A stretch of 38,608 bases of DNA, taken from contig JAPLLN010000050.1 of NCBI GenBank assembly GCA_026387475.1, positions 1-38,608 of the forward strand, given 5' to 3'. Of this stretch, positions 7,695 to 14,125 are shown in pieces. The notes beneath the pieces were generated by a model. The model did not search any database and was not told the DNA's origin. It was given only the letters and a program-made list of their open reading frames with translations. The position numbers were made by a program, and so were the translations under genes. Origin of the DNA: Candidatus Omnitrophota bacterium. Its GTDB lineage: Bacteria; Omnitrophota; Gorgyraeia; Gygaellales; Profunditerraquicolaceae. The first letter of the stretch is position 1. Every line of letters begins with the position of its first letter.

Positions 7695-8822
7695 TTAACT
7701 CATCGACTTGCGGAACCTTAAAGTGCTGAAACCTATGACCATCAACCCCATAAAGAACAACGGGACCAGCTGGATCCAGAGGATATCGATGCCTGACCCC
7801 TTCAAGAATATACTGCGGATGACCACCATAAAATAACGCAGAGGATTAATGAACGTAAACCACTGGATGACCTGCGGCATATTCGCGATAGGGTAGGCAA
7901 ACCCCGATAAAAGCACGGTCGGCATGTAAAAAAGGAATACCGACATCATTGCTTCCTGCTGGGTCGATGATACCGTAGAGATAAACAACCCTATGCCTAA
8001 AGTAGTGAACAAATAAATGCAAGTCGAAAAAAGCAAAAGAAACAGGTTGCCTCTCAAGGGAAGATGGAACCAAAGAACGCCCAGAATGGTGATCAGGGTT
8101 ATCTGTATAAGGGCTATGACTCCGAAAGGCATAAGTTTTCCTATGATAAGTTCTATCGGTTTAATGGGGCTTACAGTCAACTGCTCCATTGTCCCGATCT
8201 CTTTCTCTTTTACTATAGCCATAGCCGAAAGCAATAAAGACATCATAGTCACGATGGTCGCGATGACCCCGGGTAGATAATAATTTCGCGAAATAAGGTT
8301 TCCGTTAAACCAGGCGCGATCCCGCAGATCAACGCTGGGCACGTTGCTGATCTTGCCGGTTGCCAGCGCTTCATTCTTACTAAGCTCCTGCTGGTAATTT
8401 TCTATAATTGTGCCGGCGTAACCCATGACGATCATCGCGGTGTTGGAGTCTGTGCCGTCAAAGGTAAGCTGAACCGCGGCGTCTTTGCCTGCCTCGAGGT
8501 TGCGGCCGAAACCGCGGTCGATGTGTATTACAACGCTGGTGACACCCCTATCAAGAAGCTTGGTCTGCTCTCTCTCGCTGCTGATGAAATGCTCGGGGAC
8601 AAAATACTTAGAATAGGTAAACCTGCGCAAGAGTTCCCTGCTCTCCGAGGTATTATCCCGGTCAAAGACCGCGGTCGGCACATAATTAATATCTTTATTC
8701 GCAGCATACCCAAAGAGGATTATCTGAAGCAGGGGTGTTATAAAGATGACCGTCTTCATCCTCGGGTCGCGGAAGATCTGCTTAAATTCCTTTATCAGAA
8801 TCGCCCTGATCCTTTCAAACAT
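7695..8822 (-). CDS. ABC-2 type transporter permease (YbhR/YbhS-like)
   Basis: Six-TM ABC-2 architecture; KEIGTMEQLTVSPIKPIELIIGKLMPF. Confidence 0.92.
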   Translation of the reverse strand: MFERIRAILIKEFKQIFRDPRMKTVIFITPLLQIILFGYAANKDINYVPTAVFDRDNTSESRELLRRFTYSKYFVPEHFISSEREQTKLLDRGVTSVVIHIDRGFGRNLEAGKDAAVQLTFDGTDSNTAMIVMGYAGTIIENYQQELSKNEALATGKISNVPSVDLRDRAWFNGNLISRNYYLPGVIATIVTMMSLLLSAMAIVKEKEIGTMEQLTVSPIKPIELIIGKLMPFGVIALIQITLITILGVLWFHLPLRGNLFLLLFSTCIYLFTTLGIGLFISTVSSTQQEAMMSVFLFYMPTVLLSGFAYPIANMPQVIQWFTFINPLRYFMVVIRSIFLKGSGIDILWIQLVPLFFMGLMVIGFSTLRFRKSMS

Positions 8823-8823
8823 C

Positions 8824-9966
8824 TTAAGCCACCCTCTTTTTGAATCTTTTTATCGCCAGGCCCAGCATAAGAAATGCGAAAAGGAAGAGAAAAAGCGTCT
8901 CATCCCACATAGCGCTCATCCCCGCGCCCTTTAAGAAACAATTCCGCAAGATCACGATATAATAGCGCGCCGGGATAAAATAAGTAACGGCCTGGACGAA
9001 TTTAGGCATATTAAATATCGGATAAATAAACCCGGAGAGAAGAATGGTCGGTATCATCGTAGTCAGGCTTGCCAGCTGGCTTGCCATCAATTGGGAGCGG
9101 GCTACTACGGAGATATATATGCCCTGGCTCAATGCGCCGGTTAAGAAAAGCGCGCTTAAAAATAAAAGCATCAGATAGCTGCCCCTGAAAGGCACTCCAA
9201 AAAGAAATCTGGCCATTATCAAACCGACGATGAGATCAAAAAATCCGATGGCAAAATAAGGAAGGAATTTACCGATTATCAACTCCGGGCCTTTTACCGG
9301 GGTGGAGATGAGTTGCTCCATCGTCCCCCTCTCCCACTCCCTGGCAATGCATATCGAAGAAAGAAGGGCTACGATGATCATAATGATCATGGCGATGACC
9401 CCGGGGATGATAAACCAGGTGCTCACCAGGCCCATGTTATACCAGATCCTGGAGCGCGCATCGATTGTAGGCGGCGGATTAAGTCCGTGACCGGCGAAAT
9501 CATTGTTTATCAGGTCAATATTGTACTTTGCGACTACCGACCTGACATAACCCATAGCGATAGTAGCGGTGTTGGCATCGCTTCCGTCTACGATCAGTTG
9601 CAGAGGCGCGGCCTTTCCGCTTTCGATATAATGCGAGAAGTCTTTAGGTATAATCATGGCCATCAAGACATCTCCCTTATTGATCTTTCTTTCTATATCC
9701 CGGTAATTATCCGTGTATGAAACGATATTGAAATATTTGGAGTTCTCGAAATTGCGCATAAAATCGCGGCTGATCTTTGATGAAGCGTCCTGATTCCAAA
9801 CTACGGTGCGCACATGGTCGATATCCAGCGAGAGCCCGTAACCGAAAATAAGGAGCAGAAATATGGGAATACCCAAAGCCAGCGCCAGCGACCGGGGGTC
9901 GCGCTTGATCTGGATGAATTCTTTTAAGGCTATTGCCTTAATTCTTTTTAAGCTCTGCGCGGTCAT
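8824..9966 (-). CDS. ABC-2 type transporter permease (YbhR/YbhS-like)
   Basis: WERGTMEQLISTPVKGPELIIGKFLPY; paralogous to the adjacent permease. Confidence 0.92.
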   Translation of the reverse strand: MTAQSLKRIKAIALKEFIQIKRDPRSLALALGIPIFLLLIFGYGLSLDIDHVRTVVWNQDASSKISRDFMRNFENSKYFNIVSYTDNYRDIERKINKGDVLMAMIIPKDFSHYIESGKAAPLQLIVDGSDANTATIAMGYVRSVVAKYNIDLINNDFAGHGLNPPPTIDARSRIWYNMGLVSTWFIIPGVIAMIIMIIVALLSSICIAREWERGTMEQLISTPVKGPELIIGKFLPYFAIGFFDLIVGLIMARFLFGVPFRGSYLMLLFLSALFLTGALSQGIYISVVARSQLMASQLASLTTMIPTILLSGFIYPIFNMPKFVQAVTYFIPARYYIVILRNCFLKGAGMSAMWDETLFLFLFAFLMLGLAIKRFKKRVA

Positions 9967-10903
9967 ATTCTTCTATCGAAGAGACAAATACGTCTTCCAG
10001 TGAAGGAAGTATTTTATTTACGCTGAAATCCTTTGCCCCTTCTTTATTTAAAAAATCGCTTATAAGTGGGACTGCTTTTACGCTGTCATAAACTACGGCG
10101 TGGATATTCGCCCCGAATAACGCCGCTTCCTTTACGCCGTCGATCTTTCTTATCCTATCCAACCAGCTTTGGGCCTCGGCGAGTTGGATCTCCAACACCT
10201 GGTTCTTCATCCCCGTTGTCTTCATCTCCTGGGGCGTACCCTGGGCGATTATGGTGCCGTGATAGATCAGCACCATGCGGTTGCAGTTCTCCGCCTCATC
10301 CATATAATGCGTGGTCACAAATACCGTCACGCCTTGAGCCGCAAGGCCTTTGATGATACTCCAAAAGTTTTGCCGCGTGATCGGGTCTACGCCCGACGTA
10401 GGCTCATCAAGAAAGATTATCTTTGGTTTATGTAAGAGCGCGCAACCTAAAGCCAATCGCTGTTTCCAGCCTCCGGCCAGAGTGGCGGTAACCTTATCCC
10501 CCATCCCCTCTAAACCCGCGATCGTTAAAGTAGCTTCAAAGCGCTCTTTTCTCTCCTGACGCGGTATCTTGTATATCCCGCTGTAGAAATCAATATTCTC
10601 CCCGACCGTAAGGTCGTTATAGAGAGAAAACTTTTGCGACATATATCCGATATGCTCTTTTATCTTATGCTGCTCTTTGATAATATCAAAACCTCCGACT
10701 TTACCTTCCCCTGAAGTCGGCGGGATTATACCGCAAAGCATCCTGATAGTAGTGGATTTTCCCGCGCCGTTCGGCCCTAAGAAACCGAAGATCTCGCCTT
10801 GGGCCACCTGGAAATTTATTTTATTCACCGCGGTGAAATTCCCGAATTTCTTTTCCAGGCCCTGAACGCTTACCGCTATATTATTGACCGTCTCTACTGT
10901 CAT
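9938..10903 (-). CDS. ABC transporter ATP-binding protein
   Basis: Walker A GPNGAGKST; signature-like ATLAGGWKQRLALG; Walker B IIFLDEPTSGVDP. Confidence 0.95.
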   Translation of the reverse strand: MTVETVNNIAVSVQGLEKKFGNFTAVNKINFQVAQGEIFGFLGPNGAGKSTTIRMLCGIIPPTSGEGKVGGFDIIKEQHKIKEHIGYMSQKFSLYNDLTVGENIDFYSGIYKIPRQERKERFEATLTIAGLEGMGDKVTATLAGGWKQRLALGCALLHKPKIIFLDEPTSGVDPITRQNFWSIIKGLAAQGVTVFVTTHYMDEAENCNRMVLIYHGTIIAQGTPQEMKTTGMKNQVLEIQLAEAQSWLDRIRKIDGVKEAALFGANIHAVVYDSVKAVPLISDFLNKEGAKDFSVNKILPSLEDVFVSSIEEYDRAELKKN

Positions 10904-11621
10904 ATTCTTTTATTATGGTAACAAATGCCTCTTCTAAAGTTTTAGCGTTGAATTCTTTCTTGATTTCACCAGGAGTGGCGCAACGCAGGAGTTTCCCTTT
11001 ATGAATAAGCCCCACCCTGCCGCAGCGCTCCGCCTCATCGAGATAACATGTGGAACAGAAAATAGTGACCTTTTCTTTAAGTAATTCGTAGAGTATTCCC
11101 CAGAAATCCCGGCGCGAGACCGGGTCAACGCCGTTAGTCGGCTCATCTAAAAATAAAACTTTGGGGGTATGTATCAACGCGCAGGCAAGGCCTAATTTCT
11201 GTTTCATCCCGCCGGAGAGTTTGCCCGCAAAACGCTCTTTAAACGGCAGAAGCCCGGAGAAACCCAGCAGCCGTTCGATAGCCTCGGGGCGCTTATCTTT
11301 TGCCACACCGTAAACATCGGCGTAGAAATTGATATTCTCTAAAACGCTTAATTCTTCATAGAGCCCGAAGCGCTGGGACATATAGGCAATATGTTCTTTC
11401 AGGGGTTCGGACTCTTTTACGGTGTGTTTATTGTAGACCCAGGCCTGGCCTGCGGTAGGATTCATTATTCCGGTCAAGAGGCGCATAGTGGTAGTCTTTC
11501 CCGCGCCGTCCGGCCCGACTAACCCGAAGATCTCCCCCTCCTGAACCTCAAGGTTAAGTTGGTCGAGGGCAGTCAATTCCCCGAATTTACGGGTAAGGTT
11601 CTCGGTCTTTATGGTAACCAT
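10881..11621 (-). CDS. ABC transporter ATP-binding protein
   Basis: GPDGAGKTT, LSGGMKQKLGLA, VLFLDEPTNGVDP. Confidence 0.95.
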   Translation of the reverse strand: MVTIKTENLTRKFGELTALDQLNLEVQEGEIFGLVGPDGAGKTTTMRLLTGIMNPTAGQAWVYNKHTVKESEPLKEHIAYMSQRFGLYEELSVLENINFYADVYGVAKDKRPEAIERLLGFSGLLPFKERFAGKLSGGMKQKLGLACALIHTPKVLFLDEPTNGVDPVSRRDFWGILYELLKEKVTIFCSTCYLDEAERCGRVGLIHKGKLLRCATPGEIKKEFNAKTLEEAFVTIIKEYDSRDGQ

Positions 11622-11630
11622 GGAAATTAG

Positions 11631-12473
11631 TTATTCAATTTCTATGTAAGCGTCAGCGGGCATCCCGGGCTTTAAGTCCAGACTGGAATTATCAGCCCTG
11701 ACTTTTATTCTGTAGACGTACTTCACCCTCTCTTCGGTAGTCTGGATGTATTTGGGCGTGAATTCGGTTTCACTGGATATGAATGAGACCCGGCCTTTGT
11801 ATTTTTTGTGCGGGTAGGTATCGGTCATGATGTACGCCGGTTGGTTAAGTTTTACCCGGCCGAGGTCCTTTTCGTTGATATACGCGGTGACCCAGATATT
11901 ATTCAAATCCACCGCGGTAAATACCGGAGCGCCCGGCTGCACCACTTCTCCGGCGAGGGCACTCTTTACCAGAACAAAACCATTCAGTTGAGAAGTTAAA
12001 TCCGTAAAGCCTAAACGGGTCCTGGCCAGATCAAGAGAAGCCCTGGCCTGCTCCATATTCGCGCGGCTGGAATCAGCTTTAGTCTTGGCGGTATCGCGCT
12101 GCTGGGCGGATATAGCGCCTGCTTTATAAAGATTCTCGGCGCGCTCATAATCGACCTTATCCAGCGCGTACTGGTATTCATCCGCCCTTAACGCAGCCTC
12201 GTCTTCGGCCACGACCTTAGAGAGCTCGTCGGTATTAAGCCTTGCCACCACATCCCCGACCTTGATCACCTTTCCTTCATCGGTAAGAAGCTCGGTTATC
12301 TGGCCGTTGACCCGGAAAGAAAGGCGCACGTCATCCCCCTCCATATTGCCGGAGACCTTGATCACCTTTACGTTACGCCTCTCCTTCAGGATGATATACG
12401 CGGAAACACCCGCGGCGATCAGGGCTGCGATCACGATTAGAAATACGGGTTTAATTTTTAGCTTTATTTTCAT
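11631..12473 (-). CDS. HlyD/YbhG-family membrane fusion protein
   Basis: N-terminal TM anchor, long helical hairpin, barrel-sandwich region GFVLVKSALAGEVVQPGAPVF. Confidence 0.92.
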   Translation of the reverse strand: MKIKLKIKPVFLIVIAALIAAGVSAYIILKERRNVKVIKVSGNMEGDDVRLSFRVNGQITELLTDEGKVIKVGDVVARLNTDELSKVVAEDEAALRADEYQYALDKVDYERAENLYKAGAISAQQRDTAKTKADSSRANMEQARASLDLARTRLGFTDLTSQLNGFVLVKSALAGEVVQPGAPVFTAVDLNNIWVTAYINEKDLGRVKLNQPAYIMTDTYPHKKYKGRVSFISSETEFTPKYIQTTEERVKYVYRIKVRADNSSLDLKPGMPADAYIEIE

Positions 12474-14049
12474 TTTTATTCTCCTTTAAGACTTGCGTGC
12501 CCATGCTCCGTTCAAGACTGGCTCTAGCCATGATATAATCGTAAGTCCCCGACGCCAGATTCTGCTCTACCTGCGCCAAGGCTACCTCCGAATCCAAGAC
12601 ATCAAGATTTATTCCTACCCCGCTGATATACCTGACCTCGGAGATCTTTAACGCCTCTTTTGCCTCCGCGATATTATCTTTCTGGGAATCGATCACCGTC
12701 TGCGCTTCTTTCATATTAAGCACTGCCTGTTTTACGTCTACGGCGACCTGGTCGGAAACATTGTCTTTGCTGATGAGCGCCTGGGAATACCTGGCCTTGG
12801 CCGCGTCTACCCTGGATTTGGTCAAGAATCCGTCGAATATAGGCACTGTCACCGCTACCCCGACATCCCAATTATTGTGCCGGTTATTAAATATATTTGC
12901 CAGATTGCCCGATCTGTAAGAAAAATCCGCGCTACCCTCAACTTGAGGGAGCCATCCCGAGCGCGCGTACTTGATCCCCCATTTGCTGATGTCTATGCCC
13001 AAAGACTTAACTATCATTTCCGGCTTGTTAAGGTAGGCTACTTTCAGGAATTCGCTTTCTTTTATTTCTATCGGAATATGGCGCAACCGGTCTTCTATCC
13101 TTAAATCCGCGCTCTGTTTAAAGGCAAGTAGTTTCTTTAATTCGGCTTTGATCAGATCAACCGCGTTATCCGCCTGGATCAATTGCGGCATTAATAATGA
13201 TACCTGCACCTTGGACTGTAAAAGGTCGAACCTTGAAGATGTGCCGCGTTCGTACCTGTTCTTTACTTCCAGGAAATGGGCCTTAGCCTGGCCTAAAAGT
13301 TGTTGGGCAATGCGTTGATTCTCATACGCAAATAGGAGGCCGTAATAAAGCCTCTTGGTCTCGAATTCCACATCCAGCTTTTTGGCGCGCAGGCCTTCTT
13401 CCTGGCTCTTAAAGGTAAGTTGTTTCTGCCTAAGGCTAGAGATATTTGCCCCGCCGCTGTAAATCGTTTGCGTTGCGTTTACACCGACCTGGTTATCGTT
13501 CTTGTACCCGGCGAAGACTCCGTAATCTTTACTCGAACTTAACGCTGAAGTGGCAGTAGGTACAGCGGCCCGGCGGGTATAGCTTGCCTGGGCATTTACA
13601 TCCGGCAGGAAGGCGCTGCGCGCGCCTATTATGTCAGCCCGGGCTGCCTCCACTTCTTTCTCCTGGATCTGGATATCTTTATTATTTTTGTAGGCGACGC
13701 GCACGGCATCGGTAAGGGAAGTAAAGACTAAAGACTCGGAAGCATTCTCGGCGCAGAAAGCGATTTGCGCAAAGAAACAGATAAGGAATAAGATTAAAGC
13801 GGATTGTTTTGAGATGATGCTTTTTAATTCGTTGTAAATGGGATAGGATTTGTTGACTTTGAAAAATCTGGCGTTGGCCCGGTACTCGCTAGTCAAGACC
13901 CCTTCCTTTTCAAGGTTGTTCAGGGTCTTTTGGAATACTCCGGGTTTTTTTCTTAAGAGGCGGCCGAGCTCCTGCATATAAAAAGCGCGCTCGCTTTGAG
14001 TAAAGAAGAGCTTTAAAAGGCGGGTCTTGTTTTTAGTCAGCTGCAGCAT
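12451..14049 (-). CDS. Winged-helix DNA-binding domain fused to TolC-family outer-membrane efflux protein
   Basis: Residues ~1-80 wHTH (FYMQELGRLLRKKPGVFQKTLNNLEKEGVLTSEYRANARFFKVNKSYPIYNELKSII), then signal-peptide-like SALILFLICFFAQIAFCAENA, then TolC repeats; one uninterrupted 532-codon frame. Confidence 0.88.
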   Translation of the reverse strand: MLQLTKNKTRLLKLFFTQSERAFYMQELGRLLRKKPGVFQKTLNNLEKEGVLTSEYRANARFFKVNKSYPIYNELKSIISKQSALILFLICFFAQIAFCAENASESLVFTSLTDAVRVAYKNNKDIQIQEKEVEAARADIIGARSAFLPDVNAQASYTRRAAVPTATSALSSSKDYGVFAGYKNDNQVGVNATQTIYSGGANISSLRQKQLTFKSQEEGLRAKKLDVEFETKRLYYGLLFAYENQRIAQQLLGQAKAHFLEVKNRYERGTSSRFDLLQSKVQVSLLMPQLIQADNAVDLIKAELKKLLAFKQSADLRIEDRLRHIPIEIKESEFLKVAYLNKPEMIVKSLGIDISKWGIKYARSGWLPQVEGSADFSYRSGNLANIFNNRHNNWDVGVAVTVPIFDGFLTKSRVDAAKARYSQALISKDNVSDQVAVDVKQAVLNMKEAQTVIDSQKDNIAEAKEALKISEVRYISGVGINLDVLDSEVALAQVEQNLASGTYDYIMARASLERSMGTQVLKENKNENKAKN

Positions 14050-14056
14050 ATCCCTC

Positions 14057-14117
14057 TGTATGTTTTAAGCATACAATCGTATGTTTTACGGATACAATTA
14101 TATGCTTAAGGCATACA
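14057..14117. promoter_or_regulatory. Three 19-bp imperfect palindromic operators at exact 21-bp spacing
   Basis: Minus strand: TGTATGCCTTAAGCATATA (14117-14099), TGTATCCGTAAAACATACG (14096-14078), TGTATGCTTAAAACATACA (14075-14057). Confidence 0.85.
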
Positions 14118-14125
14118 GAAGTCAA
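14097..14125 (-). promoter_or_regulatory. Sigma70-type promoter TTGACT-N17-TATAAT of the efflux operon
   Basis: Minus strand TTGACTTCTGTATGCCTTAAGCATATAAT; the spacer is filled by one of the palindromes. Confidence 0.8.

Follow-up and report, generated by a model that had tools for sequence, protein, structure and literature searches.

Tandem palindromes at the promoter of a wHTH-TolC fusion gene as probable autoregulatory operators of an Omnitrophota efflux operon

In an Omnitrophota MAG, the first gene of an ABC tripartite efflux operon encodes a wHTH domain fused to a TolC-type outer-membrane channel (OEP), and three tandem palindromes overlap the promoter of this gene. Which protein reads these palindromes, and with what effect on the operon? 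We address this question in the window, a stretch of 38,608 nucleotides that is one whole contig of a MAG with 118 contigs and 1.26 Mb, and in related genomes. The palindromes are very probably autoregulatory operators, with the repressor domain fused to the operon's own outer-membrane channel.

The promoter array and the fusion gene

An earlier note on this DNA had described three tandem 19-bp palindromes at an exact 21-bp pitch on a TTGACT-N17-TATAAT promoter. The minus-strand sequence bears this out: the array is real and its sites start exactly 21 bp apart (Table 1), but all three palindromes are imperfect and the second is the weakest. The first site, said to fill the spacer, takes up most of it and reaches four bases into the -10 box, while the second lies over the expected start-site region and the third adjoins the Shine-Dalgarno (SD) sequence, both as described. 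Sites over the -35/-10 and start region have the placement typical of a repressor. The -35 box is mostly TTGACA in the orthologues whose upstream regions were compared.

Table 1. Coordinates of the promoter array, the fusion gene and its operon in the window, and of second arrays at loci in related genomes
Feature	Position	Strand	Basis or remark
-35 box TTGACT	14120..14125	-	sequence
-10 box TATAAT	14097..14102	-	17-bp spacer; sequence
Candidate operator 1, TGTATGCCTTAAGCATATA	14099..14117	-	PWM 22.6 bits, best in the window; conserved
Candidate operator 2, TGTATCCGTAAAACATACG	14078..14096	-	PWM 9.2 bits, 4th in the window; position conserved
Candidate operator 3, TGTATGCTTAAAACATACA	14057..14075	-	PWM 18.4 bits, 2nd in the window; conserved
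Shine-Dalgarno-like GAGGGAT	14050..14056	-	precedes ATG at 14049; sequence
wHTH-OEP fusion gene, 532 aa	12451..14049	-	translation; Pfam OEP E=3e-67; fusion conserved
wHTH domain, residues 1-82	13804..14049	-	AF2 winged helix, mean pLDDT 86; MarR/ArsR-like fold matches
Signal-peptide-like hydrophobic segment, residues 83-100	13750..13803	-	ends AFCA before E101
Efflux operon remainder after the fusion gene	7695..12473	-	ORFs and Pfam
HlyD	11631-12473	-	ORF and Pfam
ABC ATPases, two	10881-11621, 9938-10903	-	ORFs and Pfam
ABC2 permeases, two	8824-9966, 7695-8822	-	ORFs and Pfam
Second array, L111	8515-8561
Second array, L112	8461-8500
Second array, L113	2076-2115
Second array, L114	2400-2442
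Second array, L115	8816-8856
Second array, L116	963-1034
Second array, L117	1635-1674

The fusion runs from the wHTH through a signal-peptide-like segment to the channel, whose Pfam OEP domain places the gene in the TolC/OEP family. A hydrophobic stretch is found at the equivalent place in the orthologues compared, and the signal peptide would be cleaved after AFCA, before E101. An internal translation start yielding a separate TolC was considered and rejected, as there is no conserved start or SD and none in the window's own gene. Since the wHTH precedes the signal-peptide-like segment with no conserved internal start, repressor and exported channel are produced as one chain.

AF2 predicts with confidence a winged helix (helices 6-17, 25-32 and 36-49, wing 52-65), followed by a long helix (72-99) that runs into the hydrophobic stretch and at whose end confidence drops. 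Fold matches obtained with Foldseek are mostly MarR/ArsR-type repressors, including HlyU, MexR, MepR and AdcR, and together with the model they point to a winged-helix DNA-binding fold. At the sequence level, a search of the PDB with the wHTH returned nothing below E=0.05, and Pfam and NCBIfam give no classification: Pfam places it in neither the MarR nor the ArsR family above cut-off (MarR_2 reaches 12.0 bits where 27 are required), and we therefore call the domain MarR/ArsR-like in fold only.

Conservation of the array with the wHTH

With a PWM built from 52 sites of other genera (this genus left out), the three sites rank 1st, 2nd and 4th across the 38.6 kb. The triple at 21-bp pitch scores 50.2 bits, against -33.9 at the next best place in the window and a maximum of -8.9 among 60 dinucleotide shuffles, and a chance origin of the array is thereby rejected. 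Palindromy alone, with the motif ignored, is only modestly exceptional (40/54 for the triple, against a maximum of 38 in 60 shuffles), and conservation therefore carries the case. A sequence-only array model yields a single array both for the window and for the whole genome. The genome-wide motif scan proposed earlier likewise returned this one array, plus a lone further exact pattern match (C104:1582) that we rejected as an operator because it is a single site within a coding gene. We also rejected the idea of a generic repeat, which the earlier note had raised: the array occurs once in this genome and, in relatives, at the fusion locus, with a small number of additional arrays.

The array model was then applied to 128 genomes of the order with a cut-off of E<=1e-4. 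Fusion-type wHTHs (E<=1e-40) are present in 33 of them, and an array lies at the promoter of the wHTH gene in 32; in the lone exception, G013, the contig begins inside the wHTH gene. None of the 95 genomes of the order without this wHTH has an array at the same cut-off. Because 23 of the arrays found had served to train the model, what is informative are the absences and those loci that took no part in training. Conservation upstream of homologues, which the earlier note had named as a check, is seen throughout the order wherever the contig reaches far enough. At least 25 of the order's fusions are ORFs above 500 aa. Their upstream regions usually have TTGACA followed by TATATGC-N5-GCATATA-like sites at a pitch of 20-21 bp, the first in the spacer, in two to five copies; across an alignment of 23 arrays the TAT and ATA cores never change, unlike the spacers. 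The palindromes thus overlap the wHTH gene's own promoter and are conserved with the gene. In three genomes the fusion ORF ends early, at 86, 138 and 376 aa (L043 in G119, L026 in G051 and L065 in G081), with the upstream array present; we take this to mean that either the genes are disrupted or the assemblies are in error. Genomes without the fusion gave weak R1 matches (E above 1e-3), which we treated as chance: of the ten looked at, one lies ahead of the wHTH-MNT gene L120 (see below) and most others fall inside genes.

OEP relatives that lack the wHTH gave no array match up to E=1 (17 loci, 98.6 kb), and operator sites are absent upstream of the four nearest. Judged from sequence, a 68-aa XRE-like gene lies just upstream of the OEP in G037 and a TetR-like gene in G004, with no recognised regulator just upstream in G025 and G008. 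The regulators at the head of this one operon type look interchangeable.

Seven genomes (G081, G026, G010, G096, G100, G029 and G058) have a second array, usually two-site, ∼0.3-1.1 kb from the main one. In six of the seven, this array sits at a convergent junction, past the 3' end of a small divergent gene (∼152 aa, without a Pfam match in L113), and looping between main and distal operators is one possible explanation. Arrays were also observed near yqeY and Fer4_22-like genes, which are operon neighbours in this window, in G017 (L108, 216-264) and G007 (L109, 2454-2514). The fusion is on another contig in both, and these arrays could be left-over operators after relocation or part of a wider regulon. 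In G079, a two-site array (L110, 8783-8824) follows the last operon gene, before a phosphofructokinase-like gene.

The same wHTH in MNT-type proteins

A phylum sample of 386 genomes contains additional wHTH-OEP fusions, of family f38 (G302) and family f23 (G239, G198 and G180). Three of these four have an array match (E<=1e-4), G239 being the exception, and the 19-bp PWM gives the f23 sites low scores. The nearest wHTHs elsewhere in the phylum (E 1e-33 to 1e-40) belong to nucleotidyltransferase-type (MNT) proteins of 188-192 aa, one of which (L174) is confirmed as NTP_transf_2. At several of these loci the downstream ORFs resemble HEPN proteins by eye, and at the more distant L120 both MNT and HEPN are confirmed by Pfam. 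The window gene itself is not an MNT-HEPN toxin-antitoxin gene, as it carries an OEP instead of an MNT and only the wHTH is common.

Of the eight wHTH-MNT genes that share the recognition helix of the wHTH-OEP, six are preceded by a pair of operator sites spaced exactly 21 bp, and the best site at each of the six loci outscores every one of 200 shuffles; L180 shows a single site, and at L181 no site passes the threshold. Since most MNT genes whose likeness is limited to the wHTH carry these sites, the operator tracks the wHTH rather than its partner domain. Of nine wHTH-MNT genes that are more distant again, five have a palindrome <=50 bp from the start that no shuffle reaches and that differs in sequence from the efflux array; the other four fail this palindrome-versus-shuffle test. 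Several of the distant wHTH-MNT genes (L130-L136), whose recognition helices are of other types, have different palindromes immediately before the start. This distant family may generally autoregulate through upstream palindromes. One array-like match (L182, G353:C107:10639-10682, E 5e-6) lies in a genome without a wHTH match at 1e-20; either the contig end or divergence of the wHTH may explain it.

In a tree built on 84 columns, the OEP wHTHs and the close MNT wHTHs form one group (support 100/98), with weak support for a single origin of the OEP set (43/88). We conclude that the wHTH and operators of the channel and of the MNT-HEPN-type modules have a common origin; the transfer most likely went from antitoxin to channel, a direction that we infer.

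Autorepression, its alternatives and its relatives

In the order, the sites are confined to wHTH-bearing genomes and absent from OEP relatives that lack the wHTH, and most of the close MNT wHTHs have them too, which argues that they are operators of the fused wHTH. Autorepression by this domain, as suggested in the earlier note, thus gains support from the comparison. A MarR/ArsR-like wHTH dimer, formed from the N-terminal 82 residues, would bind TATGC-N5-GCATA-type sites, either as the full-length wHTH-OEP or as a stub left after signal-peptide cleavage. Dimers seated on site 1 (the spacer and the beginning of the -10) and on site 2 (the start-site region) would exclude RNA polymerase, and with site 3 and the same-face 21-bp pitch neighbouring dimers could cooperate. 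The conserved pitch of 20-21 bp suggests this cooperativity, and binding, dimerisation and repression by the wHTH are predicted from the comparisons above. We counted against autorepression the lack of a site above threshold at L181, the poor 19-bp fit of the f23 fusions, the training of the array model on 23 of the arrays found and the place of the repressor domain before a signal-peptide-like segment, which may limit the amount of it that can reach DNA.

Sequence alone cannot tell which protein binds, and the sites might be occupied by another, unlinked regulator while the fused wHTH serves something else. This is improbable, as sites and wHTH co-occur without exception in the order (G013 being a contig edge), MNT genes with only the wHTH in common mostly have the sites, and no other regulator gene is linked. 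Activation by the wHTH, instead of or besides repression, would fit the distal arrays in seven genomes but is very unlikely given that the main sites cover the spacer, the -10 and the start region, so that a dimer bound there would keep polymerase out. We find it scarcely credible that the array is non-regulatory DNA, be it a generic repeat, leader RNA hairpins or an AT-rich promoter that looks palindromic: palindromy alone is only slightly above the shuffled maxima, but transcription is expected to start downstream of site 1, genera share pitch and cores while differing in spacers, and this genome has a single array.

A more tentative proposal ties autorepression to export. The uncleaved cytoplasmic precursor would repress, and secretion and cleavage would relieve repression or anchor the wHTH stub in the inner membrane. 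In many genera a single chain comprises the wHTH, the signal-peptide-like segment and the channel, no conserved internal start divides them, and in the AF2 model helix 72-99 continues into the hydrophobic segment. However, the argument is one from domain order, and the wHTH may merely report the amount of protein made. It is conceivable, if rather speculative, that the DNA-binding domain and operators of a toxin-antitoxin system were captured as an extended signal-peptide N-region, giving a transcriptional sensor of outer-membrane channel biogenesis in which the precursor represses and export or cleavage relieves repression or anchors repressor and DNA at the membrane.

Efflux-pump autorepressors are well known. 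MexR and MepR, of MarR/ArsR type, likewise have a winged-helix fold and palindromic operators over an efflux promoter, but are separate soluble proteins, whereas the wHTH here is the N-terminus of an exported channel. The MNT-HEPN toxin-antitoxin modules (PMC2701414, PMC3710099) have the closest wHTHs and mostly the same operators at 21-bp pitch, but with a nucleotidyltransferase partner and a HEPN gene where the window has an OEP and an ABC exporter. In operon content, the locus is similar to the E. coli ybiH(cecR)-ybhGFSR operon, which comprises a TetR regulator, a membrane fusion protein, an ABC ATPase and two permeases (PMC7190983), and the G004 operon has a TetR gene before its OEP. The window's regulator is fused to an operon-encoded OEP, whereas E. 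coli ybhGFSR is thought to use a TolC encoded elsewhere. The secretion monitors SecM, VemP and MifM join an export signal to a regulatory element (PMC7897499), and ToxR has a cytoplasmic N-terminal wHTH ahead of a membrane segment (PMC7496328). Both likenesses are resemblances only: the monitors act by translation arrest, and ToxR/CadC-type proteins keep their membrane helix and periplasmic domain. No published wHTH-TolC fusion was found in the library of papers searched; as far as we found, the novelty is a repressor fused ahead of an exported channel's signal peptide.

The common domain links toxin-antitoxin-type regulation to efflux control, and the compact wHTH/operator pair can be tested in E. 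coli. The locus also raises the question of whether signal-peptide processing of an outer-membrane protein can feed back on its own transcription: with the wHTH placed ahead of a signal peptide, transcription might be tied to channel biogenesis by way of export and cleavage.
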